From NCBI GenBank assembly GCA_040901445.1, contig JBBDYQ010000015.1, positions 62,001-126,000 of the forward strand: a DNA stretch of 64,000 nucleotides, in the 5' to 3' direction. Positions 9,763 to 49,269 of the stretch are shown here, in pieces. The stretch comes from Thermoleophilaceae bacterium. GTDB taxonomy: Bacteria; Actinomycetota; Thermoleophilia; Solirubrobacterales; Thermoleophilaceae. The position numbers and the translations under genes were made by a program. Positions within the stretch are counted from its first letter, which is position 1, and each line of letters starts with the position of its first letter. The notes beneath the pieces were generated by a model. That model had not been told where the DNA came from. It searched no databases and saw nothing but the letters and a program-made list of their open reading frames with translations.

Positions 9763-9769
9763 CGGGAAG

Positions 9770-9775
9770 AAGCTA
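9770..9775 (-). promoter_or_regulatory. Candidate -10 element TAGCTT for the wzt operon
   Basis: On the minus strand TAGCTT reads from 9775 to 9770, seven bases before the GTG at 9762, so the transcript would be leaderless or nearly so. Its TA is shared with the divergent TACCGT element. No clear -35 is seen. Confidence 0.4.
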
Positions 9776-9779
9776 CCGT
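9774..9779 (+). promoter_or_regulatory. Candidate -10 element TACCGT for the 9792 glycosyltransferase
   Basis: TACCGT lies 12 bases before the ATG at 9792. It shares the TA at 9774-9775 with the opposing TAGCTT, so the two predicted promoters overlap back to back in a 29-base intergenic region. Confidence 0.35.
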
Positions 9780-9791
9780 TCCGCCGGACCG

Positions 9792-32371: not shown

Positions 32372-32382
32372 ACTTGGCCTCC

Positions 32383-34947
32383 GTGAGCACGAGTTCGAAC
32401 ACCGCTCTGGCAACCATCACGGGCATCGTGCGTGACCACGCGAGGGACGATGACGGATCCACGTTCCTGCGGCTGCTCCACGCCGGAAGCGACGACGAAA
32501 CGCTGTCCTACGCAGAACTCGTGGAGCATGCAGGACGTTGGTCCGCACGTTTCGCTGCGGACGGGCTGACGCCCGGTGATCGCGTGATCGTGATCCTTCG
32601 CCACTCGCTTGATCTCTACGCCGCCTACATCGGTGCTCTGCTCGGTGGACACGTGCCAGCGATGTTCTCGTTCCCCTCGCCGAAGTACAGCGAGGATCGC
32701 TACTTCGAACACGTGGGCGTCCTGATCGCCAGTTCTGGCGCCCGCGAGATCGTCACATATCCTGAACTTGCCGAGAAGCTGCCGCAACGCGAACGAACCT
32801 CGCTCGGAAACGCTCGGGTCACCACGCCCGCGCATCTACAGTCGGTCCCGGTTGCCCCCGCGCCGACCGCGGTGGATCCCGAGGCAGCGGCCTTTGTTCA
32901 GTATTCGTCGGGCACGACCGGCATCAAGAAGGGTGTGGTTGTCAGCCATCGCGCCCTGCTGTGGCAGCTGGAGGCGTATGCAGATGCGATCGGAGCCGGT
33001 CCCCGAGACCGGATCGTTTCGTGGCTGCCGCTGTACCACGACATGGGTCTGATCGCGTGTCTCTTCCTGCCCCTGGTTCGGAAGATCCCCTTGGTCGCGA
33101 TGTCACCCTTCGATTGGGTTGCACAGCCGGCCATGTGGCCTCGGGCCATCTCCGATTACGGGGGAACGCTCAGCTGGCTCCCGAACTTCGCCTACAGCTT
33201 CATGGCCGCCAACGTGCGCGACGACGAGCTGGCAGGAGTCGATTTGTCCACGCTTCGCGGAGTCGTCAACTGCTCTGAGCCCGTGATGAGGTCTAGTCAC
33301 GAGGCGTTCTTAGCCCGGTTTGGGCGTCACGGGATGACCGAGGATCGTCTCGCCGCCTCATACGCGATGGCCGAGAACACCTTCGCCGTTACCAGCGGCG
33401 GCTTCGGCGTGCAGCTGCGCGAGGGGCATACAGTGCTGAGCTCGGGCCGCCCACTCCCGGGAGTGGAGGTTCGAATCAGAGGGCTCGCTCACGGAGATGG
33501 CGACGACCGCGAGATTGGCGAAGTCGTCTTGCGGTCTCCGTGCCTCATGGACGGATACGACGGGAACCAGGAAGCCACGGCTGAAGCGTTGCGTGATGGC
33601 TGGCACCTCACAGGGGACCTCGGCTACCTCGACGGCGATGACCTGTTCGTCACGGGGCGTGTCAAGGACCTGATCATCATTGGCGGTCGCAACGTTTATC
33701 CGCAGGATGTTGAGGCGGCCGTACACAACGCGGAAGGCGTCATACCTGGACGCGCCGTCGCTTTCGGCGTTCCGGATGAGCGCCAAGGCACGGAGTCGCT
33801 GGTGGTTGTCGCCGAAACCAACGAGTCGGACACGGGTCGTCGTGAGGAGATCCGTCGCCTCATCCACGCGTCCGTGGCCGAGCTCACGGAGGTAGTGCCC
33901 GGTGACATCTTGCTCGTCGAGCCGAGAACGTTGCACAAATCCTCCTCAGGGAAACTTGCGCGCGCCGCGAACCGGGAGCTCTATCTCGGGATGAGGCAAC
34001 CGCACGCAAGCATGTCCAAACGAGCATCCCGCGGGGGGGCGACCGATCTGATCGACGCGGTGCGCGTAGCCGTCGCTCGTGTGGCCAGGGTTGCGCGCGT
34101 GAGGGACGATGAATCCCTCCTACGTTCTGGCCTAATCGATTCGTTCGGGATGGTCGAACTCTTCGCGGAGCTCGAGGCGGCTACGGGTGTCCGCCTAACC
34201 GCGGACCACCTGACCGAGCTCGAGCGCATGGACACGATCGCCGCTTTGGCGAATCTGGTGACAGACGGTGCCGTTCGCCCGGCGCCGTCCACACTCGTGC
34301 TCGACTCTCGAGACATCCCGATGGCGGTTGGCGGCCCGCAACCCGCGCGAAGGGGACAGGTTGGCTGGTGGACGCGGCTCTATCGGGCCATCCTGCGCCG
34401 ACATGGGGTCCAGTTCGGCCCCGGGCTGCGAGTGCTTGGTCCAATTCATCTTCAGCTCGAGGGGAACGGCTCACACGTTTCACTGGGCCGAAACGTGACG
34501 CTGATGCCCGGCGTGCACCTGAAGAACCGCGAGGAGGGCCGCATCGTTCTCCACGATGGCGCCAAGCTCGACAGCGTCGTCCGGCTCGTCGCTGCGAATG
34601 ACGCGACGATCGAGCTAGGCGAGAACGCCGTGTTCGGGATGGGCACCGTCGTCAACGCAGGTGCAGATGTACGGATCGGCCGGAATGCCTTCACGGCCTC
34701 GCACTGCGTGATCATCTCGTCCGAGCACGGCCTAGCATCGGGAGTCCCGATGCGTGAGCAGCCGTACACGCACTCGCCCGTCCTCATAGGAGAGGACGTT
34801 TGGCTCGGTGCAAACTGCCTTGTGTCCAAGGGGGCACGCATCGGCCACGGAGCGGTGGTGTCGGCAGGCTCCGTGGTGGCTGGCGACGTGCCCCCGGCAG
34901 CGATCGTGCAGGGACAACCGGCCCGGGTCATCAAATTCCGCCAATAG
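32383..34947 (+). CDS. Acyl-AMP ligase / acyl carrier / left-handed beta-helix acyltransferase fusion
   Basis: 854 residues from the GTG at 32383 (TTG at 32374 is an alternative). Residues about 1-545 are a fatty-acyl-AMP ligase-type adenylation domain: YSSGTTGIKKG at 174, LPLYHDMGL, YAMAENTFA, GDLGYLDGDDLFVTGR and the catalytic K524 in SSSGKLARA. Residues about 555-625 form a carrier domain with GLIDSFGMVEL; S587 is the expected phosphopantetheine site. Residues about 650-854 are hexapeptide repeats ending VSAGSVVAGDVPPAAIVQG, as in WbbJ/LacA acetyltransferases, with the catalytic His region SSEHGLASG. The chain could activate, carry and transfer one acyl group to a sugar. GC is lower than neighbouring genes (about 65% over 32401-32460). 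Confidence 0.88.
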   Translation: MSTSSNTALATITGIVRDHARDDDGSTFLRLLHAGSDDETLSYAELVEHAGRWSARFAADGLTPGDRVIVILRHSLDLYAAYIGALLGGHVPAMFSFPSPKYSEDRYFEHVGVLIASSGAREIVTYPELAEKLPQRERTSLGNARVTTPAHLQSVPVAPAPTAVDPEAAAFVQYSSGTTGIKKGVVVSHRALLWQLEAYADAIGAGPRDRIVSWLPLYHDMGLIACLFLPLVRKIPLVAMSPFDWVAQPAMWPRAISDYGGTLSWLPNFAYSFMAANVRDDELAGVDLSTLRGVVNCSEPVMRSSHEAFLARFGRHGMTEDRLAASYAMAENTFAVTSGGFGVQLREGHTVLSSGRPLPGVEVRIRGLAHGDGDDREIGEVVLRSPCLMDGYDGNQEATAEALRDGWHLTGDLGYLDGDDLFVTGRVKDLIIIGGRNVYPQDVEAAVHNAEGVIPGRAVAFGVPDERQGTESLVVVAETNESDTGRREEIRRLIHASVAELTEVVPGDILLVEPRTLHKSSSGKLARAANRELYLGMRQPHASMSKRASRGGATDLIDAVRVAVARVARVARVRDDESLLRSGLIDSFGMVELFAELEAATGVRLTADHLTELERMDTIAALANLVTDGAVRPAPSTLVLDSRDIPMAVGGPQPARRGQVGWWTRLYRAILRRHGVQFGPGLRVLGPIHLQLEGNGSHVSLGRNVTLMPGVHLKNREEGRIVLHDGAKLDSVVRLVAANDATIELGENAVFGMGTVVNAGADVRIGRNAFTASHCVIISSEHGLASGVPMREQPYTHSPVLIGEDVWLGANCLVSKGARIGHGAVVSAGSVVAGDVPPAAIVQGQPARVIKFRQ

Positions 34948-34975: not shown

Positions 34976-36817
34976 ATGTGTGGAGTAGCCGGATACGTGG
35001 GCCCGGCGCCGCTCGAGGGCGGGCGCGTGGAACGCACGCTGGAGCTCATGCGCCACCGCGGCCCCCAGGGCTCGGGCCATCGCCGCTTCTCCACCCCCGA
35101 CGGCCGCACGGTGGAGCTGCTGCACACGCGGCTCGAGATCATCGACCTGTACGCCCGGTCCAACCAGCCGCTGGCCGCCGACGGGCGCTGGATCGGCTAC
35201 AACGGCGAGCTCTACAACTACGTTGAGCTGCGTCGCGACCTGGAGGGCCGCGGCGAGCCGTTTGCCACCGAGTCCGACACCGAGGTGCTGCTGCGGCTGG
35301 TGGGTCGCGACGGGCTGGACGCGCTCGATCGCTGCGAGGGCATGTGGGCATTCGCCCTCTACGACGAGGGCTCGGGCGCCCTGCACCTCTCGCGCGACCG
35401 CTTCGGCGAGAAGCCGCTCTACATCCTGCGCGACGGCGCCGGGGGCCTCTACTTCGGCTCCGAGGCCAAGTTCGTGGCCGAGCTCGCGGGACGCCGCCTG
35501 CGGCCCGACCACGAGCACCTGCACCGCTACCTGGTGAACGGCTACAAGTCGCTGTACAAGCAGCCGGCCACGTTCTTCGAGGACCTCGAGGAGCTGCCCC
35601 CCGGCCACGTGCTGAGCGTCGGGGAGGGCGGCGGCGAATCGCTGGCGCCGTACTGGCGTCCCGAGGTGGGCACGCCCGACGAGGACATGGCCTACGAGGA
35701 CGCGGTGGCCGGGGCGCGGGAACGGCTCATACGCTCTGTGGAGCTGCGCCTGCGCGCCGACGTGCCGCTCGCCTTCTGCATGAGCGGCGGAGTGGACTCG
35801 CAGTCACTCATCAGCGTCGCCAAGCGCGTGTTCGACTACGACGTGCACGGCTTCACGATCGTCAACAGCGACGAGCGCTACGAGGAGCAGGACATGGTCG
35901 ACTACGCGGTGGCGGAGCTCGGCGTGCGCCACACGGCCATCCCGGTGGACACGCGCGACTTCCTGCCGCGGCTGCGCACGCTCGTGCGCCACCACGACGC
36001 GCCCGTCTACACCATCACCTACTTCGCGCACTGGATGCTGATGCAGTCGATCGCCGAGCACGGCTATCGGATCTCGATCAGCGGCACCGCGGCGGACGAG
36101 CTCTTCACGGGCTACTACGACCACCACCTGGCCTACCTGCGCGAGGTGCACGGCGAGCCGGAGCTGCACGCCGCATCGCTGGCCGCCTGGCGCGAGCACG
36201 TGGCGCCGGTGGTGCGCAACCCGCACCTGAAGGACCCCGACCTGTTCGTGAAGGACCCCGGCTTTCGCGACCACATCTACCTGGACGCCGACGAGTTCGC
36301 CTCGCACCTGCACGTGCCGTTCAACGAGCCGTTCGAGGAGGCGCGCTTCGACGGCGCGGGACTGCTGCGCACCCGCATGCTCAACGAGCTGTTCCACGAG
36401 GCGGTGCCGGTGATCCTGCACGAGGACGACCTCAACGCCATGTACTTCTCGATCGAGAACCGCTCGCCGTTCCTGGACCGCGACCTGTTCGAGTTCTCGC
36501 TGCGCATCCCGGAGCGCCACCTGGTGCAGGACGGCCGCGCCAAGGCGGTGCTGCGCGACGCCATGGACGGCATCGTGCCGCCGCGGATCACCGAGAACCG
36601 TCGCAAGGTGGGCTTCAACGCACCCGTGCTCGACTATCTCGACGTGGGCGATCCGGAGGTCCGCGGCTGGCTGCTGGGCGACGGCGAGATCTGGGAGCAC
36701 GTGCGCCGCGACGCCATCGAGGGCATCCTCGACCTCGACTTCCTCCCGAACTCCAAGAGCAAGTTCCTCTTCAACCTCGTCAACGCAAAGCTCTTCCTGG
36801 AGGAGTTCGGGTCGTGA
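34976..36817 (+). CDS. asnB: Asparagine synthase-like glutamine amidotransferase
   Basis: 613 residues, ATG at 34976 so that Cys2 (MCGVAGYVG) is the glutaminase nucleophile. The N-terminal Ntn domain shows HRGPQGSGH, YNGELYNY and ESDTEVLL; the synthase domain has the ATP-pyrophosphatase loop SGGVDS at 270-275 and SGTAADELFTGY. Length and motifs fit AsnB, but in surface-glycan loci such proteins amidate sugar carboxylates or peptide-like decorations. Here it opens an operon with two oxidoreductase/aminotransferase genes, so amidation of an acidic sugar is the likelier role (inference). Confidence 0.85.
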   Translation: MCGVAGYVGPAPLEGGRVERTLELMRHRGPQGSGHRRFSTPDGRTVELLHTRLEIIDLYARSNQPLAADGRWIGYNGELYNYVELRRDLEGRGEPFATESDTEVLLRLVGRDGLDALDRCEGMWAFALYDEGSGALHLSRDRFGEKPLYILRDGAGGLYFGSEAKFVAELAGRRLRPDHEHLHRYLVNGYKSLYKQPATFFEDLEELPPGHVLSVGEGGGESLAPYWRPEVGTPDEDMAYEDAVAGARERLIRSVELRLRADVPLAFCMSGGVDSQSLISVAKRVFDYDVHGFTIVNSDERYEEQDMVDYAVAELGVRHTAIPVDTRDFLPRLRTLVRHHDAPVYTITYFAHWMLMQSIAEHGYRISISGTAADELFTGYYDHHLAYLREVHGEPELHAASLAAWREHVAPVVRNPHLKDPDLFVKDPGFRDHIYLDADEFASHLHVPFNEPFEEARFDGAGLLRTRMLNELFHEAVPVILHEDDLNAMYFSIENRSPFLDRDLFEFSLRIPERHLVQDGRAKAVLRDAMDGIVPPRITENRRKVGFNAPVLDYLDVGDPEVRGWLLGDGEIWEHVRRDAIEGILDLDFLPNSKSKFLFNLVNAKLFLEEFGS

Positions 36818-37203
36818 GGTTCGAGCCGGTGGAGCCGCCGCGGGAGTTCGAAGTCGGGCGCCGCGGCGGGCGGCTGCGCCACGTGGGCGACGCATGGCTG
36901 GGCCATGACGAGGTGCTGACGCTGCGCACCGAGTCGGGCACCGAGGTGGACCTCACCCGCAAGTCGTGGGGCTGGTACGGCGGCCCGTCGCTCAACGGGC
37001 GCTTGCGCGACCACCGCCTGCGCGCGGCGCTCTGCATGGGCTTGCCCCGTGAGGGCGAGCAGGCCCAGCGCATGTACCTGCTGTTCGTGGAGGAGGGCCA
37101 CGAGGCGGACTTCGAGGGCTACCTCGCCGCCGAGCACATGCAGGTGGTGGCCTGGCTGGACTCCGACGAGGCCGTGGCCGAGGCCGCGCGGCGGCTGGCG
37201 TGA
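36814..37203 (+). CDS. Small conserved-looking protein of the AsnB operon, function unknown
   Basis: 129 residues from the GTG at 36814; both junctions are GTGA overlaps (with AsnB and with the oxidoreductase), which strongly supports translation. It is soluble, with a beta-rich first part (RHVGDAWLGHDEVLTLRTES), a WGWYGGPSLNGRLRDHRL core and an acidic C-terminal helix. I do not recognise the family. Position suggests an accessory or small subunit for the amidotransferase or the sugar oxidoreductase. Confidence 0.6.
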   Translation: MRFEPVEPPREFEVGRRGGRLRHVGDAWLGHDEVLTLRTESGTEVDLTRKSWGWYGGPSLNGRLRDHRLRAALCMGLPREGEQAQRMYLLFVEEGHEADFEGYLAAEHMQVVAWLDSDEAVAEAARRLA

Positions 37204-38204
37204 CGCTGCGCGCCGGGGTTATCGGCCTGGGGGTGGGCGAGCAGCACGCGGACGCGTACGCCGCGCACCCCCAGGCCGAGGTCGCCGCGCTCTGCGACCT
37301 CGACGAGGCCAAGTTGAATGCGGTGGGCGAGCGCCACCCGGGCGCCCGGCTCACGGCCTCCGCCGAGGAGCTGCTCGCCGACGACGCGATCGACATCGTC
37401 TCCGTGGCCTCCTTCGACTCGTTCCACCACGAGCAGGTCAAGCGGGCCATCGAGAGAGGCAAGCACGTCTTCGTGGAGAAGCCACTCTGCCAGCACGAGT
37501 GGGAGGCGCGCGAGCTGGCCGAGGCGCTCCAGGCGCAGCCCGGGCTGGTGCTCTCGTCCAACCTCCTGCTGCGCGTCTCGCCGCGCTTCGAGCAGGTCAA
37601 GCGCTGGGTGGAGCAGGACCGCTTCGGCCGCATCTACTTCCTCGAGGGCGCCTACGACTACGGCCGGCTGTGGAAGCTCACGGAGGGCTGGCGGGGCGAC
37701 CTCGACCACTACTCGGTGACCCTGGGCGGCACCGTCCACGTGGTGGATCTGCTGCTGTGGCTGACAGGCGACCGCGTGAAGAGCGTCACCGCGCGCGGCA
37801 ACCGGATCGCCAGCGAAGGGACCAAGTTCCGCTTCGATGACCTCGTGGCCGCCACGCTCGAGCTGGAGAGCGGAGCCGTGGCGCAGGTCACCGCCAACTT
37901 CGGCGGCGTCCACCCCCACTACCACGAGGTGGAGGTGTGGGGCACGCAGGCGACGTTCGTCAACGGGCTCGAGAGCGGGACGCTGTGGACGGAGGGCGCG
38001 GACGGAGCGGTGCCCGAGGCGGTGGACACCCCGTATCCAGGGGTGCGCAAGGGCGACCTGGTGGCCTCGTTCGTGGACGCGGCGGCCGGCGGCGGCCCCC
38101 CGATCGTGACCGCCGCGGAGGTGTTCGAGGTGATGGCCGTGTGCTTCGCCATCGATCGCGCGGCGGCCTCGGGCGAGACCGTCGAGCCGGAGAGGTTCGG
38201 CTAA
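37200..38204 (+). CDS. Gfo/Idh/MocA family sugar oxidoreductase
   Basis: 334 residues from the GTG at 37200 (GTGA). Rossmann start AGVIGLGVGEQHADAY, signature HVFVEKPLCQHEW, and the GGTVHVVDLLLWLTG active-site helix with its histidine. In nonulosonic-acid and diamino-sugar pathways such dehydrogenases form the 3- or 4-keto substrate used by a DegT aminotransferase, which is exactly the next gene (12-base gap). Paralogue of the enzyme at 18890. Confidence 0.85.
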   Translation: MTLRAGVIGLGVGEQHADAYAAHPQAEVAALCDLDEAKLNAVGERHPGARLTASAEELLADDAIDIVSVASFDSFHHEQVKRAIERGKHVFVEKPLCQHEWEARELAEALQAQPGLVLSSNLLLRVSPRFEQVKRWVEQDRFGRIYFLEGAYDYGRLWKLTEGWRGDLDHYSVTLGGTVHVVDLLLWLTGDRVKSVTARGNRIASEGTKFRFDDLVAATLELESGAVAQVTANFGGVHPHYHEVEVWGTQATFVNGLESGTLWTEGADGAVPEAVDTPYPGVRKGDLVASFVDAAAGGGPPIVTAAEVFEVMAVCFAIDRAAASGETVEPERFG

Positions 38205-38207
38205 CGT
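38202..38207 (+). promoter_or_regulatory. Candidate -10 element TAACGT
   Basis: TAACGT overlaps the TAA stop of the oxidoreductase and lies nine bases before the ATG at 38217. Confidence 0.42.
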
Positions 38208-38216
38208 GCCGCGCGC

Positions 38217-39371
38217 ATGATCCCCTTTGGAAAGCCGATGATCGGCCAGGAGGAGCGCGACGCGGTCGCCGAGGTGCTCGCCGGCACCACGCTCACGCAC
38301 GGCCCCCGGGTGAAGGAGTTCGAGGCCGCCTTTGCGGAGTTCACGGGCGCGCCGCACGCCATCGCCACGGCCACCTGCATGGCGTCCCTGCACCTGGCCT
38401 ACCTCTACCTCGGAATCGGCGCAGGCGACCAGGTGATCGTGCCCGCCCAGACGCACGTTGCGATGGCGCACGCGGTACAGGCGGTGGGTGCCGAGCCGGT
38501 CTTCTGCGACGCCGACCCCCGCACCGGGAACGTCGATCTCGACCAGCTCGAGGGCCTGGTGACCGACCGGACCCGAGCGATCTCGGTGGTCCACTACCTC
38601 GGCCGGCCCGTGGACATGGGCCGGGTGCTCGAGATCGCCCGCCGCCACGACTGCTTTGTGGTGGAGGACTGCGCCATCGCGCTGGGCGCCACCATCGGGG
38701 GCACCCACGTGGGCCTGCACGGCGACGTGGGCTGCTTCTCCTTCTACCCCGTCAAGCACATCACGACGGGCGAGGGCGGCATGGTCATCACCACCCGCGA
38801 TGACGTGGCCGACCGCGTCTCCAAGCAGCGCGCGTTCGGCATCGACAAGAGTGTTCTGGCCGATCGCCGCCACACCGGCGCCTACGAGATCGAGCACCTC
38901 GGGTTCAACTACCGGCTTGGCGAGATCGGGGCCGCCATGGGCGTGGAGCAGATGAAGCGCCTGCCGGGCTTCCTCGAGCAGCGCGAGCGCAACTTCGAGG
39001 CGCTGGCCCAGGGTCTCGGGGAGGTGGACGAGCTGCGGGTGCTCGAGAGCGGGCATGACGACGACAGGCGCTCGAGCCATTACTGCCTGGTCGCGGAGCT
39101 CGACGAGCCACTGGCCGGACACCGCGAGCAGATCATCGAAGCGCTCAAGGCCGAGGGCATCGGGACGTCGGTCTACTATCCGAAGCCACTGCCGGAGACC
39201 CGCTTCTACGGCGAAACCTATGGCCACCAGGCGGGTTCCCATCCCGTGGCCGCACGCATCAGCTACGGCTCGATCGCCTTCCCGGTCGGGCCCCACATCG
39301 AGGAAGGTGACGTGGAGACGATCGTCGAGGGCGTCAAGCGAGTCGTGTCCAAGGTGGCCGTCCATGGTTGA
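38217..39371 (+). CDS. DegT/DnrJ/EryC1/StrS sugar aminotransferase
   Basis: 384 residues, ATG at 38217. MIPFGKPMIGQEE is the family's N-terminal start, VVEDCAIALGA carries the cofactor Asp region, and SFYPVKHITTGEGGM contains the PLP-binding lysine. FNYRLGEIGAAMGVEQ is the conserved dimer/active-site segment. The reaction is transfer of an amino group to a nucleotide keto-sugar. Closest role models are LegC/PseC/SpsC, which fits the downstream NeuB synthase and CMP-transferase. Overlaps the next gene by 8 bases. Confidence 0.9.
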   Translation: MIPFGKPMIGQEERDAVAEVLAGTTLTHGPRVKEFEAAFAEFTGAPHAIATATCMASLHLAYLYLGIGAGDQVIVPAQTHVAMAHAVQAVGAEPVFCDADPRTGNVDLDQLEGLVTDRTRAISVVHYLGRPVDMGRVLEIARRHDCFVVEDCAIALGATIGGTHVGLHGDVGCFSFYPVKHITTGEGGMVITTRDDVADRVSKQRAFGIDKSVLADRRHTGAYEIEHLGFNYRLGEIGAAMGVEQMKRLPGFLEQRERNFEALAQGLGEVDELRVLESGHDDDRRSSHYCLVAELDEPLAGHREQIIEALKAEGIGTSVYYPKPLPETRFYGETYGHQAGSHPVAARISYGSIAFPVGPHIEEGDVETIVEGVKRVVSKVAVHG

Positions 39372-40401
39372 CGTCGCCGGCAAGCGGGTCGCGCTGGTGG
39401 GCGGCGCCGGGTTCATCGGCCATCAGCTCGCCATCGCCCTCAAGGAGCAGGGCGCCGAGCCGCACGTGATCGACGGGCTGGCCGTGAACAACCTGCTCCA
39501 CTACACGGCACTGCCCCCCGGCACGCCCAACCGCGAACTCTACATCAAGATCATCGAGCAGCGGTTCGCGAAGCTGCACGCGGCCGGGGTGCCCATCCAC
39601 GTCCAGGACGCGCGCGACTACCACGCGCTCTCGCACATCCTCGACGAGATCTCGCCGCAGACGATCGTGCACCTGGCGGCCATCGCGCACGCGGGCAAGT
39701 CGAACAAGGACCCGATGAGCACGTTCGGGCATTCGCTGCGCACGCTCGAGAACGCGCTCGACTTCGCCCGCGCCGACGGCGTGGAGCACTTCGTCTTCTT
39801 CTCCTCGAGCATGGTGTACGGAAACTTCCAGACGCCCGAGGTGTCTGAGGACCATCCGCTCGATCCGATCGGCATCTACGGCGCCCTCAAGCTGTCCGGC
39901 GAGAAGATCGTCACGGCCTACAAGCAGGTCTTCGACCTCGACTACACGATCATCCGCCCGTCGGCCCTCTACGGGCCGGGCTGCGTGAGCCGCCGGGTCA
40001 GCCAGATCTTCATCGAGAGCGCTCTCGTGGGGGACAAGCTGCGCGTGGACGGAGACGGCGACGAGCGGCTGGACTTCTCCTACATCGGCGACGTCGTGGA
40101 CGGCGTCCTGCGCGCGGTGGGCCATCCAGCGGCGCGCAACGAGTGCTTCAACATCACGGCGGGCAACGCGCGCCAGCTGCGCGAGCTGATCGAGCTCGTG
40201 CGCGAGCACTTCCCCGAGGTCGAGGTCGAGTACGTGGAGCGCGACGCCCTGCGCCCCTACCGCGGCACGCTCAGCATCGAGAAGGCCCGGCGACTGATCG
40301 GCTACGACCCCCAGACCACACTCGAGGACGGCCTCGACCGCTACGTGGCGTGGTACCGCGACCTCGTCTCGGACGGGGCGCTGGCCGCGCCGCCCGCCTG
40401 A
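39364..40401 (+). CDS. NAD-dependent epimerase/dehydratase, LegB-like candidate
   Basis: 345 residues, ATG at 39364 inside the end of the aminotransferase gene. GGAGFIGHQ nucleotide loop, SSSMVYGNF active-site serine region, and IYGALK as YxxxK. An insertion after the second strand (LAVNNLLHYTALPPGTPNRE, about 35-55) is unlike plain UDP-glucose epimerase. In a nonulosonate pathway it would be the 4,6-dehydratase/epimerase producing the keto-sugar; the exact activity is inferred from context. Confidence 0.8.
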   Translation: MVDVAGKRVALVGGAGFIGHQLAIALKEQGAEPHVIDGLAVNNLLHYTALPPGTPNRELYIKIIEQRFAKLHAAGVPIHVQDARDYHALSHILDEISPQTIVHLAAIAHAGKSNKDPMSTFGHSLRTLENALDFARADGVEHFVFFSSSMVYGNFQTPEVSEDHPLDPIGIYGALKLSGEKIVTAYKQVFDLDYTIIRPSALYGPGCVSRRVSQIFIESALVGDKLRVDGDGDERLDFSYIGDVVDGVLRAVGHPAARNECFNITAGNARQLRELIELVREHFPEVEVEYVERDALRPYRGTLSIEKARRLIGYDPQTTLEDGLDRYVAWYRDLVSDGALAAPPA

Positions 40402-40411
40402 CGCCGGCCCC

Positions 40412-41137
40412 GTGGAGATGCGTGAAGACGGCTGGCTCTCGGAGCGGTTCGGCCACCCCGTCTACTCGCTGACCGGCCTCGAAGGGGGATTCGATGCCGA
40501 GGCGCTGCGCGGGCACACAACCGGACGGGACGCCGCCAGCTACCAGGCCAAGGTCGCTGCCGGGGCCTGGGCGCTCGTGCGCGATCTCGTGGCAGCCGGC
40601 TTCCGCGAGGTCTGCACGGCGGTAACGCTCGCCCGGGCTCTGGAACCGCCGCTAGATCCCCGGCGGGACGAGCCCGTCGTGCGGCCCATCGACCCGGACC
40701 GGGACTCGGGTTTGCCCGATCTGGCTGCGCGGGCCTTCCACTCGAGCCGCTTCCACCTCGACCCCTACATCCCGGGCTCGGTGGCCACGGCGATCAAGCG
40801 GGACTGGACGGCGAGCTACCTGTCCGGAACGCGCGGCGTGGGCGCCCTCGTGGCCGAAGGCGACCATGGGCCCCTCGGCTTCCTCGGCATGCTCGGCACA
40901 GGCGATGTGCGCGTGATCGACCTCATCGCGGTGGACCCCGCCGGTCAGGGGCGCGGCGCCGGGCGTGCGCTCGTCCGGCGCCTGCTCGACGAGACATGCG
41001 GGCACTCCGAGCGCGTGGAGGTGGGGACGCAGACGGCGAACGGGCGGGCCATCCGCTTTTACGAGCGACTGGGCTTCGCGACGGCGCGAACCGCCCACGA
41101 CCTCCACCTCCACACCGGTACCCCACGGTGGGGTTGA
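40412..41137 (+). CDS. GNAT-family N-acetyltransferase
   Basis: 241 residues from the GTG at 40412; the ATG at 40418 is nearly as good. The C-terminal 150 residues form the GNAT core, with IDLIAVDPAGQGRGAGRALV as the acetyl-CoA loop (Q-x-x-G-x-G/A) and RAIRFYERLGFATAR as the final motif. The N-terminal 90 residues hold a separate region like that of WecD/SpsD-type sugar acetyltransferases. It probably N-acetylates the amino-sugar made by the DegT enzyme. Stop and next start overlap as TGATG. Confidence 0.83.
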   Translation: MEMREDGWLSERFGHPVYSLTGLEGGFDAEALRGHTTGRDAASYQAKVAAGAWALVRDLVAAGFREVCTAVTLARALEPPLDPRRDEPVVRPIDPDRDSGLPDLAARAFHSSRFHLDPYIPGSVATAIKRDWTASYLSGTRGVGALVAEGDHGPLGFLGMLGTGDVRVIDLIAVDPAGQGRGAGRALVRRLLDETCGHSERVEVGTQTANGRAIRFYERLGFATARTAHDLHLHTGTPRWG

Positions 41138-42960
41138 TGAAGGTCCCGGCAGCGTCCGCGGTCGCGGCGTTCGAGGCCGCCTATGTCGAGCGAGCGCGGC
41201 GCGAGCTCGGCTCCCGCCTCGCGACCGCCGAGGCCGTCGTCCTTGACCGCCTGCCGCTCGCGGATGGCCGGCCAGCGCTTGCAGGCTGGTGGTGCCCAGA
41301 GGACGCGGGCGACGGCCTGATCGTGCTACCCAACCCGTGGGACGAGCGGGCGGCCATCGAGCCGTGCGTCGATTACGTCTCGGCGATCGTCGACCTTCTA
41401 ATCGCACACGGGGCGACGGTCATGGAGGAGGCCCACGATGCCGCGCACGCCGCGGTGTACTGGGATGTCCTGTTGCGTCCGTGGCTCACATTTATGGCCC
41501 ACGTGGGCCTCGACCGGCGGATGTTCTGCGCAGCAGTCACGGACCTGGCACCCGATCTCCCTGTTGCAATTGGGACGCCCCCGGAGGTTCCTCCAACGAT
41601 GGGGGAGGCCGTCGAACTGGTGCGGAGGGATGCGGGGAACCGCTCGATCGGGACCTACTTCGCGCAGCGTCTGGATCTCCCGGTGACGGACGCGATACAG
41701 CCTTTGCCCGCGGCTCCAACCCAACCACCTCGCTCGACGCCAGCCGGCTGGGCGCTGATCGCGCTTGAGCTCATGATCCAGGGCACAACCGCAGCTGTGG
41801 CATCAATGAAAACCGGGCGTCGCGTCGTCCTCGTCGGCGGCGGGCATCTTTCGGCCATCGACACACTACGTCTCATGCGCCGCGTGCGCGGCCTTCGAAT
41901 CATCCGCGGCCCGGGACCGCAACCCGGTCTTCGTCCGGAAAGCCCCGTTCGCGACGACATCCGTCGCCGTTTCGCAGCAATGGAGACAGACGATCCCTGC
42001 GTCGCGGACATCGCAGCTTTCGCAGCAAGAATGCTACCCCGGACGGTGCTGGAGGACTACGAGGCGGTGGTCACGGCGAGTCGGCGCCGCTACGGCGCCG
42101 CCTGCGTTGCGATCGCAGGCAACTACCGGGCCCAGGACGTCGAGGCGGAGTTCCTTGGGCGCTGCGCGGAGGCCGGCTTGCTGCGTGCCTTTGTCCAACA
42201 CGGGGGGACCTATCTCCAGGCGAAGGTGAACGCGTACGAGAGTCTCGAGATCCGTCCCTGGGCGGCTTTTATGAGCTGGGGCGGTAGGGGACGAAGCGTG
42301 CGACCGCTCCCAAGTCCGCGTCTAGCGCGTATCCGTGACAGCCACGTGGGTAGCAGAAGGATCGTCATCCTAGAGTGGCTCATGCCGCCCGATACGTACC
42401 TCTCGCGTATCGGGACTAAGCCGCTGGCAAACCAGGGCTATGCCCAACACGACCTGCTTGCCGAGTTTGTCCGCCACGCCGACGCCTTCCAAAACAACCT
42501 GTTCCTCAGGCGCTTCCCATATGTCGGGCTCGACGCTGAGCGCGACCCCGTCGTCGCCGCGCTGCCACATCGAGCACCAGCGACTCGGCGCAGCGCGACG
42601 CGGCTGATGCAGTCTGCGGGGTTGTGTGTCCTCACGTACCCGGACACCCCGTTCATCGAAGCGATGGTGATCGGAGTGCCGACCGTCGGGCTATGGGACC
42701 CGGACCTCTGGGAGTTCCGCGACGACGCCCGCGGCCCGTTCGACGCGTTGCGCGCCGCCGGGGTGCTCTTCTCCGATCCCCGCGCAGCGGCAGCACATGT
42801 TGAAGCGATTCACGAGCGGGCCTCGGACTGGTGGGCCTCGCGTGAGATCCAGGATGCCCGTCAGCTCTTCCTCGACCGCTTCGCGATCGGCGGGGATTGG
42901 CTCGCGGCCTGGACGTTCTTCCTCCGCGAGCTCCGCGATCGCCCGGCTGCGCCAAGGTGA
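41137..42960 (+). CDS. LIC12162-family putative transferase
   Basis: 607 residues, ATG at 41137. Segments match the pattern of the LIC12162 family from Leptospira glycan loci: YWDVLLRPWLTFMAH followed by GLDRRMF, FVQHGGTYLQAK, ILEWLMPPDTYLSRIGTKP, and TYPDTPFIEAMVIGVPTVGL with WWASREIQDARQLF near the end. The family is thought to transfer a sialic-acid-like or other unusual sugar. It occupies the slot where sps-type operons carry the UDP-sugar hydrolase SpsG. GC is low for the window (about 58% over 42481-42540), a sign of transfer. Assignment is from motif memory. Confidence 0.65.
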   Translation: MKVPAASAVAAFEAAYVERARRELGSRLATAEAVVLDRLPLADGRPALAGWWCPEDAGDGLIVLPNPWDERAAIEPCVDYVSAIVDLLIAHGATVMEEAHDAAHAAVYWDVLLRPWLTFMAHVGLDRRMFCAAVTDLAPDLPVAIGTPPEVPPTMGEAVELVRRDAGNRSIGTYFAQRLDLPVTDAIQPLPAAPTQPPRSTPAGWALIALELMIQGTTAAVASMKTGRRVVLVGGGHLSAIDTLRLMRRVRGLRIIRGPGPQPGLRPESPVRDDIRRRFAAMETDDPCVADIAAFAARMLPRTVLEDYEAVVTASRRRYGAACVAIAGNYRAQDVEAEFLGRCAEAGLLRAFVQHGGTYLQAKVNAYESLEIRPWAAFMSWGGRGRSVRPLPSPRLARIRDSHVGSRRIVILEWLMPPDTYLSRIGTKPLANQGYAQHDLLAEFVRHADAFQNNLFLRRFPYVGLDAERDPVVAALPHRAPATRRSATRLMQSAGLCVLTYPDTPFIEAMVIGVPTVGLWDPDLWEFRDDARGPFDALRAAGVLFSDPRAAAAHVEAIHERASDWWASREIQDARQLFLDRFAIGGDWLAAWTFFLRELRDRPAAPR

Positions 42961-42970
42961 ATCCGGCACA

Positions 42971-42976
42971 TATCCT
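42971..42976 (+). promoter_or_regulatory. Candidate -10 element TATCCT
   Basis: TATCCT lies six bases before the GTG at 42983, in the 22-base gap after the LIC12162-type gene. Confidence 0.42.
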
Positions 42977-42982
42977 TGCCGC

Positions 42983-43672
42983 GTGATCGCCACGGTGGTC
43001 CAGGCGCGGATGTCCTCCGCGCGCCTGCCGGGCAAGGTGCTGCGGCCTATCGCGGGAACCCCAGCCCTTCAGTACCTGCTCGAACGGCTCGCCCGGGCAC
43101 ACGGCCCCGACTCCACTATCGTCGCCACCTCGCAGGGCCCGGAGGACGACCCGGTGGCCGCGCTCTGCGACCGCCTGGGCGTGCCAGTGCACCGCGGGCC
43201 GCTTGAGGACGTGGCGGAGCGCTTTGCGGAGGTGGTGGAGCGCTTCGGCCTGGACGCCTTCGTGCGGGTGTCCGGCGACAGCCCGCTGCTCGACCAGCGC
43301 ATCGTGGACCGCGCCGTGGAGCTCTTCCGCTCCCGTGAGCCGGACCTGGTGACCAACGTCTTCCCCCGGTCCTTTCCTGTCGGGCAGTCGGTGGAGGTGG
43401 TCTCGGCAGCCAGCTTTGGGGCCCTCCTACCCGAGCTCGAGGACTCCGACGCGCGCGAGCACTTAACGCGGATGTTCTACTCGCGCCCGGAGAGGTTCAG
43501 CATCGAGAACTTCTCCAACGACCGCGACCTGAGCGGCGTGCGGCTGGCCATCGACGAGGAGCCCGATGCCCTCCTCGTCGAGCGCGTGGTGTCGCGCATG
43601 ACCCGCCCGCACTGGGACTACTCGCTCGACGAGCTTGTCGCGCTCGCCGATGGCCCCGCGCCCGTGGGCTAA
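42983..43672 (+). CDS. spsF: SpsF-like CMP-sugar cytidylyltransferase
   Basis: 229 residues from the GTG at 42983. VQARMSSARLPGKVLRPIAG (6-25) is the signature of SpsF/NeuA-related cytidylyltransferases, with VRVSGDSPLLDQRIVD as the metal/substrate strand. It sits directly before a NeuB synthase, the same pairing as SpsF-SpsE in Bacillus spore polysaccharide operons. Expected product is a CMP-nonulosonic acid. Note that the second CMP-transferase (27960) is in a different operon. Confidence 0.85.
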   Translation: MIATVVQARMSSARLPGKVLRPIAGTPALQYLLERLARAHGPDSTIVATSQGPEDDPVAALCDRLGVPVHRGPLEDVAERFAEVVERFGLDAFVRVSGDSPLLDQRIVDRAVELFRSREPDLVTNVFPRSFPVGQSVEVVSAASFGALLPELEDSDAREHLTRMFYSRPERFSIENFSNDRDLSGVRLAIDEEPDALLVERVVSRMTRPHWDYSLDELVALADGPAPVG

Positions 43673-43675
43673 CCT
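43670..43675 (+). promoter_or_regulatory. Candidate -10 element TAACCT
   Basis: TAACCT overlaps the TAA stop of the cytidylyltransferase and ends eight bases before the TTG at 43684. Confidence 0.42.
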
Positions 43676-43683
43676 GGCCCGCC

Positions 43684-44691
43684 TTGAAGATCGGGGACTT
43701 CGACCTGGACGAGCGGGTGCTCGTGGTAGCCGAGATCGGCAACAACCACGAGGGCGACGCCGAGACGGCGCGTGAGCTCGTCCGCGAGGCCGCCGCCGCC
43801 GGCGCGCACGCCGTCAAGTTCCAGACGTTCAAGACCGAGCTGTTCGTGAGCGCCCTCGACGCCGCCCGCTTCGCGCAGCTCAGCCGCTTCGAGCTCCCCT
43901 CTGAGGTCTTCGCGGAGCTGGCGGACCTCGCGCGCTCGCTCGGGCTGCTCTTCCTCTCCACCCCGCTCGACCTGGAGAGCGCGGGGTTCCTCGAGGGGAT
44001 CGTGGACGCCATGAAGATCGCATCCGGGGACAACGACTTCTTCCCGCTGCTGCGCAGGGTCGCGGCGGGTGACAAGCCCATCGTGATCTCCACCGGCGCC
44101 AGCGAGGAGGGACACGTGCAGGCCGCCGTGGACGCGGTCACGGAGGTGCGGGGGCCGGCTGCTCGCGACTCGGTCGCGCTACTGCACTGCGTGAGTAGCT
44201 ACCCCGCGGAGCCGCAGGACCTCAACCTTCGCGCTATCCCCTACCTCGCCGAGCGGTTCCCTTACGCCGTTGGCTATTCCGACCACTCGCTCGGGATCAC
44301 GGCCGCGCTCGCTGCTGTCGCTCTGGGCGCACGCATAGTCGAAAAGCACTTCACGTTGGAGTCGGTGAGCTCCGACTTTCGTGACCATCAGCTGTCGGCC
44401 ACCCCGTCTCAAATGCGCGAGCTCGTTGACGCCATCGAGCAAGCGCAAGGCATGCTCGGTTCCTTTGAGAAGACGATCCAGCCGACCGAAGCAGAAGCGC
44501 GAGATGGCATCCACCGCTCCATCGTCGCCGCCCGCGATCTCCAGCCGGGGCATAAGATCCGGGAAGATGACCTGACATGGGTACGGCCTGGTGGCGGCCT
44601 CGCCCCAGGCCAGGAGGCCTGCTTACTCGGGTATCGACTACGCACCCGCAAGCACTCCGGGGAGCAGCTGCTGGTGTCTGACCTTGAGTGA
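43684..44691 (+). CDS. neuB: NeuB/SpsE-type nonulosonic acid synthase
   Basis: 335 residues from the TTG at 43684. The TIM-barrel domain (about 1-265) has VVAEIGNNHEGD, AVKFQTFKTELF, MKIASGDNDFFPLL, IVISTGAS, CVSSYPAEPQDLNL and VGYSDHSLGI followed by IVEKHFTL, all conserved in NeuB enzymes that condense phosphoenolpyruvate with a hexosamine derivative. The C-terminal SAF (antifreeze-like) domain covers about 279-335 (RSIVAARDLQPGHKIR). The set of genes upstream suggests a legionaminic/pseudaminic-like product rather than sialic acid. Confidence 0.92.
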   Translation: MKIGDFDLDERVLVVAEIGNNHEGDAETARELVREAAAAGAHAVKFQTFKTELFVSALDAARFAQLSRFELPSEVFAELADLARSLGLLFLSTPLDLESAGFLEGIVDAMKIASGDNDFFPLLRRVAAGDKPIVISTGASEEGHVQAAVDAVTEVRGPAARDSVALLHCVSSYPAEPQDLNLRAIPYLAERFPYAVGYSDHSLGITAALAAVALGARIVEKHFTLESVSSDFRDHQLSATPSQMRELVDAIEQAQGMLGSFEKTIQPTEAEARDGIHRSIVAARDLQPGHKIREDDLTWVRPGGGLAPGQEACLLGYRLRTRKHSGEQLLVSDLE

Positions 44692-45960: not shown

Positions 45961-47829
45961 GTGCCTGGGGCCTTCGACGCGGGCAGTGGGCGGCGCCGGC
46001 TCGCGGCGCTGGTTGAGTCGGCCGACGAGGCTGTCATCCAGCTCGACCGCGATGGCCTCATCGAACGCTGGAACGCCGGCGCCCAGCACCTTTACGGCCA
46101 CGCCGAGGACGATGCGGTCGGGTGCCGCCTCACCGAGCTGCTGCATGCGCCCGAGCTGCCGGAGCCCGGCGCCGACGGGTCCCTGCGCGACTTCACGGCC
46201 GGCCACCGCCACCGCGACGGCGGCGAGCTCACCGTGGCCTGCACCGTCTGGCCGGTGAGCGACGGCGGCCGGCTCACGGGAAGCGTGGTGGTGGCGCGCC
46301 GCAACGACGAGGCCGAGGAGCTCGAGCGGCGCATGCGCGACGAGGTGCAGCAGCTGCGCGAGGCCCAGGACGTTGCACAGCTCGGCGCGTGGGCGTGGCA
46401 GCCCGGGTCGAACATCGTGACCTGGAACGACGCCCTCTACCGCATCTACGGGGTGGACCCGCAGACCTTCACGCCCAGCGTGGAGGAGTACTTGGCTCGG
46501 GTGCACGACGACGACCGCGAGCTCGTCCTCGACCAGATCACGCGGTCACTCACCACCCGCGAGCCGTTCGAGTTCGACGAGCGCATCGTGCGGCCCGGAG
46601 GCGAGGTGCGGCAGGTGCATTCGCGCGGCCGGGTGATCGCCGACGCCGACGGCGGCGCTGAACGGATGATCGGCGTCTCCGTGGACGTGACCGAGCGGGT
46701 GCAGGGACAGGCGCAGCTGCGCGACGCCATGGAGCGCCTGCAGGAGGCGCAGGAGATCGCGCGCATCGGCAGCTGGGAGTGGGACATCGCCGGGAACGAG
46801 GTCACCTGGTCGCAGGTGCTCTACGAGATCTACGGGGTGGACTCCAACTCGTTCGAGGCCAGCTACGACGCCTTCATCGGCTTCATCCATGAGGACGAGC
46901 GCGAGCACGTGGACCGCACCATCCGCGCCGCGCTGGAGAGCGGCGAGCCGTTCGCGTTCACGCACAAGCTCGAGCGCCCGGACGGCGGGCTGCGCACCCT
47001 GGACTGCCGCGGGCGCGTGTTGACCGACGACGCGGGGCGGCCGCTGCGGATGATCGGCACCGCGCTCGACGTGACCGAGCAGCGCGAGGCCGAGCAGCAG
47101 CTGGCGGAGGAGCGGCGGATCGCGGAGACCCTGCAGCGCAGCCTCCTCCCCGCCGAGCTGCCCACCGGCGGCGACGTGGTGGTGGCAGCGCGCTATCTGC
47201 CGGCCACCGCCGAGGTGGGCGGGGACTGGTACGACGCCATGCCGCTGCCGGGCGGCGGCCTCGGGCTGGTGCTGGGCGACGTGAGCGGGCACGGCATCCG
47301 TGCCGCCGCGCTCATGGCGGAGCTGCGCCACTCGCTGGCGGCCTACGTCTTCGATGGGCGCGAGCCGGCCGAGGCGGCGGACCGTCTCGACCGGCTCCTG
47401 CGCGAGCGCGGCCACCAGCACATCGCCACGCTCGTGTACGGCGTGCTGGAGCCGGGCGGGGTGTTCCGCTACGTGAGCGCGGGTCACCTGCCGCCGCTGG
47501 TCATCGATGATGGCGGCGCACGGCTCCTCGAGCCCGAGCCGGGGCCGCCCCTGGGCGTGGGCGCCGACTACACCGAGGGGAGCTGTCACGTGCCGCCCGG
47601 CGCGTTGCTGGTGCTCTACAGCGACGGCCTGGTGGAGCGCCGCGACGAGGTGCTGGACGTCGGCCTGGAGCGCCTGCGGGCGCTGGCCGCCGCCGGCCCG
47701 CGCGATCCCGAGGAGCTGTGCGACCACCTGGTGGCCGGGCTCGTGCCGGCCGAGGGCGGCGACGACGACGTGGCGGTGATGGTGGCCCGGCCGGGCGCGC
47801 CGGCTACGCCTCGTGCGAGTAGCGGGTGA
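45961..47829 (+). CDS. Three-PAS sensor with SpoIIE-type PP2C phosphatase
   Basis: 622 residues from the GTG at 45961. Three PAS domains (about 12-110, 135-240, 260-375; the last two have [12 protein letters not shown] and [12 protein letters not shown], so they are internal duplicates). [19 protein letters not shown] introduces the RsbU/SpoIIE phosphatase (about 385-615) with [20 protein letters not shown] and [10 protein letters not shown] metal-binding aspartates. Such proteins dephosphorylate anti-anti-sigma factors. No anti-sigma partner is in the window. No transmembrane segment, so it senses a cytoplasmic signal. Overlaps the converging gmd gene by 26 bases. Confidence 0.9.
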
Positions 47830-48838
47830 CCTTGCCCGCCAGCTGATCCTCGAGCGCCGAGAGGTCGGCGTCCACCATGATCCGCACCAGCTCGTCGAAG
47901 GTCACCTTGGGCGTCCAGCCCAGCTTTTCGCGGGCCTTGCTCGGGTCTCCCAGCAGCTCGTCCACCTCGGAGGGGCGGAAGTAGCGCGGGTCGATCTCCA
48001 CGTGCTGCTCCCAGTCGAGGCCGGCGTGGCCGAACGAGGCCTCCACGAACTCCTTGACCGAGTGGGTCTCGCCGGTGGCGATCACGAAGTCGTCGGGCGC
48101 GTCGTGCTGGACCATCAGCCACATGGCCTCCACGTAGTCGGGCGCGTAGCCCCAGTCGCGCTTGGCCTCGAGGTTGCCGAGGAACAGCTTGTCCTGCAGG
48201 CCGGCCTTGATGCGTGCCACCGCGCGGGTGACCTTGCGGGTGACGAAGGTCTCCCCGCGGCGCGGTGACTCGTGGTTGTGGAGGATCCCGTTGCTGGCGA
48301 ACAGGCCATAGGCCTCGCGGTAGTTCACGGCCGCCCAGTAGGCCGCCACCTTGGCCACGGCGTAGGGGCTGCGCGGGTGGAAGGGCGTGCTCTCCGACTG
48401 AGGCGGCGGGGCGGCGCCGAACATCTCGGACGACGACGCCTGGTAGAAGCGCGCGCTCTCGGCGCCGGCCTCGCGCATGGCGTCGAGCAGGCGCAGCGTG
48501 CCGGCGGCGGTCACGTCGAACGTGTACTCGGGGATGTCGAAGGACACGCGCACGTGGCTCTGCGCGCCCAGGTGGTAGATCTCGTCGGGCTGCAGCTCGT
48601 AGAGGAGCTTGGTGAGCGCAAGGGAGTCCGAGAGGTCGCCGAAGTGGGTGAACAGCCGGACCCCGGACTCGTGCGGGTCGCGGTAGAGGTGGTCGATGCG
48701 GTCGGTGTTGAAGCTCGAGGAGCGGCGCACGATGCCGTGCACCTCGTAGCCCTTGTCGAGCAGGAGCTCGGCGAGGTAGGAGCCGTCCTGGCCGGTGATG
48801 CCGGTGACCAGCGCCTTCTTGCCGTTCGCCTCGTTCAC
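47804..48838 (-). CDS. gmd: GDP-mannose 4,6-dehydratase
   Basis: 344 residues from the GTG at 48838; the frame continues to 48940 across the divergent promoter region, so a longer start is unlikely. [21 protein letters not shown] is the family's N-terminus; ASSSEMFG and SPYAVAK give the catalytic Ser/Tyr/Lys, and [15 protein letters not shown] is the GDP-mannose contact loop. It produces GDP-4-keto-6-deoxymannose, precursor of GDP-fucose, GDP-rhamnose and GDP-perosamine. Second copy at 57943. Confidence 0.93.
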
Positions 48839-48846
48839 GGGCCGGG

Positions 48847-48852
48847 AGGCTA
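48847..48852 (-). promoter_or_regulatory. Candidate -10 element TAGCCT for gmd
   Basis: On the minus strand TAGCCT reads from 48852 to 48847, eight bases before the GTG at 48838. Confidence 0.4.
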
Positions 48853-48879
48853 CCTGCGCGGCCCCCGGAGGGCTGTACG

Positions 48880-48885
48880 TATACT
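48880..48885 (+). promoter_or_regulatory. Candidate -10 element TATACT for the HTH gene
   Basis: TATACT differs from TATAAT at one base and ends nine bases before the ATG at 48895, so transcription would begin at or just before the start codon. Confidence 0.55.
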
Positions 48886-48887
48886 CG

Positions 48888-48903
48888 ACACCGTATGCGG
48901 TGT
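48888..48903. promoter_or_regulatory. Candidate operator palindrome over the HTH gene start
   Basis: ACACCG (48888-48893), TATG, CGGTGT (48898-48903): perfect 6-bp arms with the ATG of the HTH gene in the loop. Position over the predicted transcription start suits autoregulation by the encoded repressor; binding is inferred. Confidence 0.45.
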
Positions 48904-49269
48904 TCCAGACCTGAGCTTGGCGAACTCGTGCGGCTGGCACGGCTGCGGCACGGGCTCAGCCAGCGACAGCTGGCGGTACGGGTGGGCACCAGCCAGGACG
49001 CCATCAGCCGGGTCGAGCGCGGCCGCGAGTCTCCGAGCTTCGAGCGCTTCCGCGAGCTGCTGCTGGCGATGGGCGAGGAGCCGTCGCTGCGCACCGCCGC
49101 GCTCGACTGCGACCTCTCCGACGACGACCTGCGGGCCTCCCTGAGCCTCTCCCCCGCCGAGCGGCTCCGCGAGTCGGCGTCGTGGAACCTCGTGGCGACC
49201 CGGCTCGAGATCGCCGGCGCAGAGGCCCGCCGGGCCGGCCATCCCGCCACCCGCCCGTCCGGCAGATGA
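48895..49269 (+). CDS. XRE-type helix-turn-helix protein (antitoxin-like)
   Basis: 124 residues, ATG at 48895. Residues about 9-63 are an XRE helix-turn-helix: [38 protein letters not shown] and [11 protein letters not shown]. The C-terminal half ([20 protein letters not shown]) is a helical region that in similar proteins contacts a partner. Its stop overlaps the nucleotidyltransferase start as ATGA. Together they look like an antitoxin-toxin or regulator-effector pair unrelated to glycan synthesis. Confidence 0.8.

Follow-up and report, generated by a model that had tools for sequence, protein, structure and literature searches.

A widespread operon, probably for a CMP-activated nonulosonate-like acid, without a recognizable NDP-sugar hydrolase

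Contig JBBDYQ010000015.1 of a Thermoleophilaceae bacterium carries, within the 64,000-nucleotide stretch analyzed here (the window, to whose whole length all positions refer), an operon that very probably makes a cytidine monophosphate (CMP)-activated ulosonic acid. Its genes encode a Gfo/Idh/MocA oxidoreductase (Gfo), a DegT-family aminotransferase, a short-chain dehydrogenase/reductase (SDR), a GNAT acyltransferase, a LIC12162-type protein (TIGR04331; LIC), an SpsF-type cytidylyltransferase, and a NeuB-family synthase. At roughly even odds (about 0.5), we read the locus as the Thermoleophilia copy of a conserved operon whose product is a CMP-activated, N-acylated amino-nonulosonate-like acid, made without a nucleoside diphosphate (NDP)-sugar stage, and in which LIC acts as a transferase. 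Absence of the NDP-sugar stage is, taken alone, a tentative claim. More tentative still is its extension to a class of pathways, shared by at least 17 phyla, in which amination by Gfo and DegT would yield CMP-activated amino-nonulosonates with no NDP stage, dehydratase, or hydrolase.

A conserved gene module

GTDB genomes were scanned with an alignment of the SDR (A1) as seed; neighboring genes played no part in the selection of the 80 loci returned. With the window proteins as queries, neighbors were counted as follows: DegT in 76 loci, NeuB in 71, Gfo in 70, GNAT in 66, SpsF in 65, the amidotransferase AsnB in 64, and a 129-residue orphan protein in 40. The module, SpsF-Gfo-DegT-SDR-GNAT-NeuB-AsnB, recurs in identical seven-gene order in 40 of the 80 loci, and this arrangement is therefore far beyond chance. 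SpsF, Gfo, DegT, SDR, and NeuB occur all together in 59 loci, from 17 named phyla and two unassigned records. Bearers include SAR11, cyanobacteria, and one archaeal bin (L070), some of the bins, L070 foremost, being perhaps misassigned.

Three Pelagibacteraceae records with genomes of about 1 Mb (L129, L115, and L132) have the module, in either complete or divergent form. A variant order, SpsF-DegT-SDR-NeuB-Gfo-GNAT-AsnB, is found in L092, L117, L119, L121, and L080, whose NeuB proteins form a separate clade (support of 100 in the Shimodaira-Hasegawa-like approximate likelihood ratio test, SH-aLRT). Flagellin genes adjoin several module loci or lie within a few kb of them (L038/L122, L040/L116, L056, and L072). 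The Thermoleophilaceae genome itself has three flagellin-domain matches (G000:C25:101534-103627 and 142320-142727), on a contig other than that of the operon.

Five other genomes of the class have all or most of SpsF-Gfo-DegT-SDR-(GNAT)-NeuB-AsnB, and a sixth contig stops after NeuB-AsnB; LIC is absent from all of these. The initial annotation held nonulosonates to be rarely documented in this type of actinobacterium. Such genes are no rarity there: of 299 class genomes, 53 encode NeuB-like proteins. Searches of open-access papers for this gene combination turned up only other clusters: Shewanella sfm, with a thiamine pyrophosphate enzyme and an ATP-grasp protein, and the Leg-type islands of Aeromonas and Plesiomonas. 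The components belong to known families; their combination, together with the absent hydrolase, is apparently undescribed in the searchable open literature.

Missing hydrolase and dehydratase

PseG and NeuC/LegG are absent both from the operon, as already noted in the initial annotation, and from the rest of the genome, which is rated 100% complete. The best PseG score in this genome is 19.9 bits, for a protein (in L151) that reads as MurG. Its sole Epimerase_2 protein is of the WecB type, which is non-hydrolyzing: 264 bits against TIGR00236 (cut-off 210) and 51 bits against NeuC (cut-off 236). None of the 80 module loci has a PseG-like gene within 10 kb; such a gene does lie near NeuB in two non-module loci of the class. 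Among 50 module genomes, PseG scores over its cut-off in 3 and NeuC in 14, and 34 have neither over cut-off nor any PseG score above 90 bits, a count in which incomplete bins weaken any single absence. Spirulina sp. CCY15215, listed as an isolate, lacks both a hydrolase and a PF02719 dehydratase; a hydrolase is likewise missing from Methylocystis sp. B8 and Afipia birgiae.

The SDR is strongly conserved among the module genes. The position of the RmlB Thr-Asp-Glu residues reads Ser-Ser-Met (Thr in one) in all 81 SDR sequences, as in C4 epimerases; the motif SSS[MT]xYG is likewise present in 81 of 81, and YxxxK is retained. The module therefore lacks a 4,6-dehydratase as well as a hydrolase. 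From its motifs, the SDR is proposed to be an epimerase or an oxidoreductase. PF02719 dehydratases are missing (E<=1e-30) from 17 of the 33 hydrolase-less module genomes tested, a search that did not extend to RmlB-type dehydratases elsewhere in those genomes.

The synthase and the cytidylyltransferase

The best NCBIfam model for the window NeuB is NeuB_NnaB (284 bits, versus 232 for PseI), with both scores under the equivalog cut-offs. It retains the equivalents of Neisseria meningitidis NeuB residues E25, K53, K129, S132, Y186, S213, H215, E234, H236, D247, and R314. Among these, E25, K53, K129, S132, S213, H215, E234, and H236 are the phosphoenolpyruvate- and metal-binding positions. Of 70 module NeuBs, 69 or 70 share each of the tested catalytic and sugar-binding residues; for the SAF-domain arginine (Arg314) the number is 69.

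Module NeuBs form a clade of their own, in which one loop is shortened and one residue inserted: E23, R62, Y198, and the inserted F232 (in FRDH) are typical of them and largely absent from others. A quick tree, with three partial sequences as references (Neu, Pse, and SpsE, the last being the sole Leg-type reference), groups the window NeuB with module NeuBs of Actinomycetota, Planctomycetota, and Chloroflexota. All three references and the other NeuBs of the class lie across a branch of SH-aLRT 96. The initial annotation had proposed placing NeuB among the Neu, Leg, Pse, and Sps groups and had left room for a non-sugar synthase. The second idea finds no support, all tested catalytic and sugar-binding residues being retained, and the protein stands outside the Neu, Pse, and Sps reference groups. 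The SpsF-type protein also scores against 3-deoxy-manno-octulosonate (KDO) cytidylyltransferase models.

Operon layout

The seven genes first annotated are all present, collinear on one strand from the Gfo start (37200) to the NeuB stop (44691), with gaps of -8 to +22 bp. The operon extends 5' of Gfo, where the AsnB and orphan genes lie directly upstream with overlaps of 4 bp:

34976-36817, + strand: AsnB-type glutamine-dependent amidotransferase (TIGR01536, 359 bits), a module core gene
36814-37203, + strand: 129-residue orphan protein ("sm"), no family assigned
37200-38204, + strand: Gfo/Idh/MocA NAD(P)-dependent oxidoreductase, catalytic EKP motif retained
38217-39371, + strand: DegT-family pyridoxal phosphate aminotransferase, best NCBIfam model PseC (302 bits, cut-off 423)
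39364-40401, + strand: extended SDR with motifs SSSMVYG and YGALK, without the Asp/Glu of 4,6-dehydratases
40412-41137, + strand: GNAT N-acyltransferase, WecD-like (Pfam/NCBIfam)
41137-42960, + strand: divergent LIC12162 (TIGR04331) protein, 197.7 bits, glycosyltransferase-B (GT-B) fold
42983-43672, + strand: SpsF-type cytidylyltransferase (CMP-acid synthetase), CTP_transf_3
43684-44691, + strand: NeuB-family nonulosonate synthase with SAF domain, NeuB_NnaB 284 bits
44788-45864, + strand: S-adenosylmethionine methyltransferase 3' of NeuB, a possible tailoring enzyme

The methyltransferase has a 41% identical relative directly after AsnB in a LIC-bearing Humidesulfovibrio module. The window surroundings are those of a surface-polysaccharide locus: a Wzx-like flippase, a glycosyltransferase, methyltransferases, and a GDP-mannose dehydratase. 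The last, a GDP-mannose 4,6-dehydratase (47804-48940, - strand; PF16363, 482.8 bits), lies 3 kb from the operon on the opposite strand and could supply other sugars of the locus. Just 5' of AsnB (32374-34947), an 857-residue protein combines an AMP-binding domain with a C-terminal hexapeptide acyltransferase; it may load an unusual acyl group for a sugar amine.

The orphan protein yields a confident model (predicted local distance difference test, pLDDT, 93), which has no PDB fold match below E 1.

A proposed route

A dehydratase and NDP activation are in principle unneeded, because Gfo and DegT can add an amine by way of hydroxyl oxidation. Gene content and its conservation, catalytic residues, the lack of hydrolase and dehydratase signatures, the GT-B fold, and the linkage of LIC to NeuB are observed; the substrates, step order, amide, and transferase activity of the following route are inferred. 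Gfo would oxidize a hydroxyl to a ketone, DegT would transaminate that ketone, and GNAT would acetylate the amine (a formyltransferase doing so with formyl in some sister operons); the non-dehydrating SDR would set the stereochemistry. NeuB would condense the aldose with phosphoenolpyruvate, SpsF would activate the acid with CTP, and AsnB would form an amide late in the route. LIC, as an acquired GT-B transferase, would use the CMP-acid. The substrate for amination might be a sugar that is phosphorylated or not activated at all, or else the ulosonic acid once NeuB has formed it. Placed outside the NDP stage in this way, amination would require neither an NDP-sugar hydrolase nor a 4,6-dehydratase.

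Catalytic motifs are well kept in the module alignment: the AsnB nucleophile C2 and PP-loop (S270-S275) are invariant, as is EKP of Gfo, and GG..H of Gfo is conserved. DegT has a perosamine synthase as its best PDB match, with Lys180 in the sequence FYPVKH.

Sister operons vary in what presumably are tailoring functions. An ArnA/Fmt-like formyltransferase fills the GNAT slot in L036 (8421-9347) and L067 (10950-11990); in other loci (L058:12643-14384 and L070:12793-14414) a formyltransferase and a polysaccharide deacetylase lie between NeuB and AsnB. These genes suggest N-formyl variants of the product. WbuX-type N-acetyl-sugar amidotransferases (TIGR03573, 323 bits where tested) occur in 34 loci, mostly just after AsnB and before the orphan (e.g., L068:10083-11198), and are absent from the window; they suggest acetamidino variants. 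Exchange of N-acetyl, N-formyl, and acetamidino groups is expected of an amino sugar; it supports the function given to GNAT but says nothing of when in the route that enzyme acts.

The LIC12162-type protein

LIC matches TIGR04331 over residues 97-642 of a longer open reading frame; the score of 197.7 bits is below the curated cut-off of 225, making the protein a divergent member. The NCBIfam scan found TIGR04331 only, with no match to TIGR03590 (PseG) or TIGR03568 (NeuC). A Pfam scan of 13 family members gave no family beyond one match at E=0.048, and neither phmmer nor a profile found a significant sequence relative in PDB. Identity to other members is 18-26%.

The family is scarce among relatives of this bacterium: one genome of 299 in the class has a match, as do 3 of 396 in the phylum (none over cut-off). 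Of 51 module genomes, 9 have a match, which exceeds the cut-off in 5; of 198 Desulfobacterota, 11 have one, 7 of them above the cut-off. Among the 80 module loci, LIC is found in one with the window protein as query and in three with LIC relatives as queries. No relatives were found in viral contigs or plasmids.

Where the family does occur, it mostly keeps company with NeuB. NeuB lies within 10 kb of LIC in 11 of 13 loci, or in about 7 of 9 if five similar Desulfobacterota loci are counted once; five of the 13 come from genomes selected for the module, which have NeuB somewhere, but by chance LIC would fall within 10 kb of it in only a few percent. Relatives that adjoin NeuB score 248-508 bits. 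The Humidesulfovibrio locus (L150) has LIC immediately before SpsF, an arrangement shared with the window. In L149, the 601-residue protein upstream of SpsF is a PglK-type ABC transporter, and LIC is a divergent neighbor at 9160-10923. The five Desulfobacterota loci (L165-L169) have LIC directly downstream of a classical NeuB, with fliD as a near neighbor in L166, the case tested. The closely spaced NeuB and LIC12162 genes of L166 (3454-10720) and its relatives L165 and L167-L169, together with the fliD seen in L166, are a candidate minimal set for flagellar glycosylation. Within the same 20 kb, a Nitrospira cluster (L147) combines LIC with a NeuC that exceeds its cut-off (396.8 bits) and a PseG-like protein scoring 98 bits, and in Herbaspirillum the LIC family stands alongside neuC (PMC6679464).

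The structural model of LIC (pLDDT 73; predicted template modeling score 0.75) has a GT-B half at about residues 200-606. That half matches SenB, MurG, and TagF (Z 9-10), and also WecB/NeuC, NeuC being among the Foldseek matches. In this well-modeled half, no carboxylate is shared by as many as 11 of the 13 members apart from position 530, where D and E are mixed; the histidine of a QHG motif (His355) is present in 12. The gene has a GC3 (G+C at third codon positions) of 0.77 and a codon fit of 0.38, and stands apart, together with the methyltransferase gene, from the core genes (0.52-0.79). By its low GC3 and codon fit, LIC is an accessory insertion in this copy of the operon.

TagB-domain proteins are proposed transferases for pseudaminic (Pse) and legionaminic (Leg) acids in Tannerella, in work cited in PMC7439481. 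NeuB linkage, the GT-B fold, atypical codons, and this precedent together favor an acquired CMP-nonulosonate transferase. LIC is probably a transferase, its linkage to NeuB and SpsF pointing to a CMP-nonulosonate as the proposed substrate.

Alternative explanations

Several observations weigh against our reading of the locus. NDP-4-amino sugars are the substrates of some relatives of DegT, GNAT, and the ArnA-like formyltransferase; the LIC model is moderate (pLDDT 73), and its GT-B fold, common to NeuC and WecB, is non-discriminating. About half of the hydrolase-less genomes carry a PF02719 protein, as does the Thermoleophilaceae genome itself (C17:38178-39029, 375 bits). Encoded elsewhere, that protein could be a UDP-N-acetylglucosamine dehydratase by analogy with SpsM of Bacillus subtilis, and a general pyrophosphatase with a phosphatase could be the source of the hydrolase step. 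The main rival is built on this host supply: a standard Sps/Leg-type NDP-sugar route, with an SpsM/PglF-like dehydratase and either a Nudix enzyme/phosphatase or an unrecognized hydrolase provided in trans. The B. subtilis SpsM is indeed encoded apart from the sps operon (PMC7439481), and DegT and GNAT resemble NDP-sugar enzymes. However, 17 of the 33 hydrolase-less genomes lack PF02719 by the search above, neither PseG nor NeuC exceeds its cut-off in 34 of the 50 module genomes, and an operon so widely shared would be expected to carry its own dedicated steps. This rival is unlikely, yet it deserves the most weight of those considered. Alternatively, a module protein might itself hydrolyze an NDP-sugar, Gfo being an example, through NAD-dependent oxidation-elimination. 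Such chemistry is known for the Gfo-related fold (GH109/GH4-type glycosidases), and Gfo is a core protein (70 of 80 loci) with the EKP and GG..H conservation noted above. Its nearest relatives are, however, ordinary dehydrogenases, and a Leg cluster already equipped with LegG also contains the Gfo-type PtmF (PMC4481668), which leaves this explanation quite improbable.

The product of NeuB and SpsF might be other than a nonulosonate, such as an eight-carbon amino-octulosonate. The distinct NeuB clade, with its shortened loop and one-residue insertion, and the SpsF scores against KDO models would fit such a product, but the SAF-domain arginine kept in 69 of 70 and the NeuB_NnaB model as best match do not, and we consider it improbable, if slightly less so than hydrolysis by Gfo; open-access literature on 8-amino-3,8-dideoxy-manno-octulosonate (Kdo8N) provided nothing useful. 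By our estimate, the least probable alternative is that this genome uses LIC as its hydrolase. PseG resembles GT28 proteins, and the GT-B fold of LIC is shared by NeuC, WecB, and MurG, with NeuC among the fold matches. Against this, LIC is confined to 3 of 80 module loci and has no match in 298 of 299 class genomes, and sister operons keep the rest of the module; in L147 it occurs together with NeuC and PseG-like genes; its GT-B half shows no conserved pattern of catalytic-type carboxylates; and its atypical codon usage marks an insertion. Distribution, coexistence with hydrolases, and codon usage led us to reject this candidate, and LIC is very likely not the hydrolase. The initial annotation had offered two options, a LIC protein in place of the hydrolase or a different CMP-acid. 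The former is not supported, since homologous operons lack both LIC and hydrolase; the latter is the better of the two. Its description of a nonulosonate-like operon without a recognizable hydrolase is correct.

Comparison with known systems

Nonulosonates are described as ubiquitous in microbes in work cited in PMC8053191. Genome predictions of these sugars rely on NeuB plus known Neu, Leg, and Pse partners. A common module that departs from the usual set of dehydratase, aminotransferase, acyltransferase, hydrolase, synthase, and CMP synthetase would mean that many environmental lineages bear an unread class of surface sugar and that amino-ulosonates can be reached by new chemistry. Compact and conserved, the module is directly testable in a laboratory strain. 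The LIC12162 family, for its part, is a candidate for the transferases of sialic-acid-like sugars, enzymes that are poorly known in bacteria.

The legionaminic pathway of B. subtilis (SpsM, C, D, G, E, F; PMC7439481) shares with the module the DegT, GNAT, NeuB/SpsE-type synthase, and SpsF-type cytidylyltransferase. It needs the SpsG hydrolase and SpsM dehydratase, whereas the module has neither, adds Gfo, a non-dehydratase SDR, and AsnB, and has a NeuB outside the SpsE branch. The CMP-legionaminate route of Campylobacter and Plesiomonas (PtmA, E, F; LegB, C, H, G, I, F; PMC4481668) shares an oxidoreductase (PtmF), aminotransferase, acetyltransferase, NeuB, and CMP synthetase; its LegB dehydratase, LegG hydrolase/epimerase, and PtmE nucleotidyltransferase are all absent from the module. 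Likeness to the pseudaminate pathway (PseB, C, H, G, I, F) lies in DegT, which scores best against PseC (302 bits), and in NeuB, which also matches PseI; the module scores are under the equivalog cut-offs, and the set has no PseB and no PseG.

The window LIC protein shares with the LIC12162 family (TIGR04331) a near full-length alignment, the QHG motif region, and linkage to NeuB clusters, but differs in its sub-threshold score (197.7 bits, cut-off 225) and its identity of 18-26%. Finally, the kanosamine enzymes NtdC and NtdA, of the Gfo and DegT types, act on glucose-6-phosphate and set a precedent for amination without nucleotide activation. That system is without a ulosonate synthase, and its likeness to the module would be one of chemistry only.

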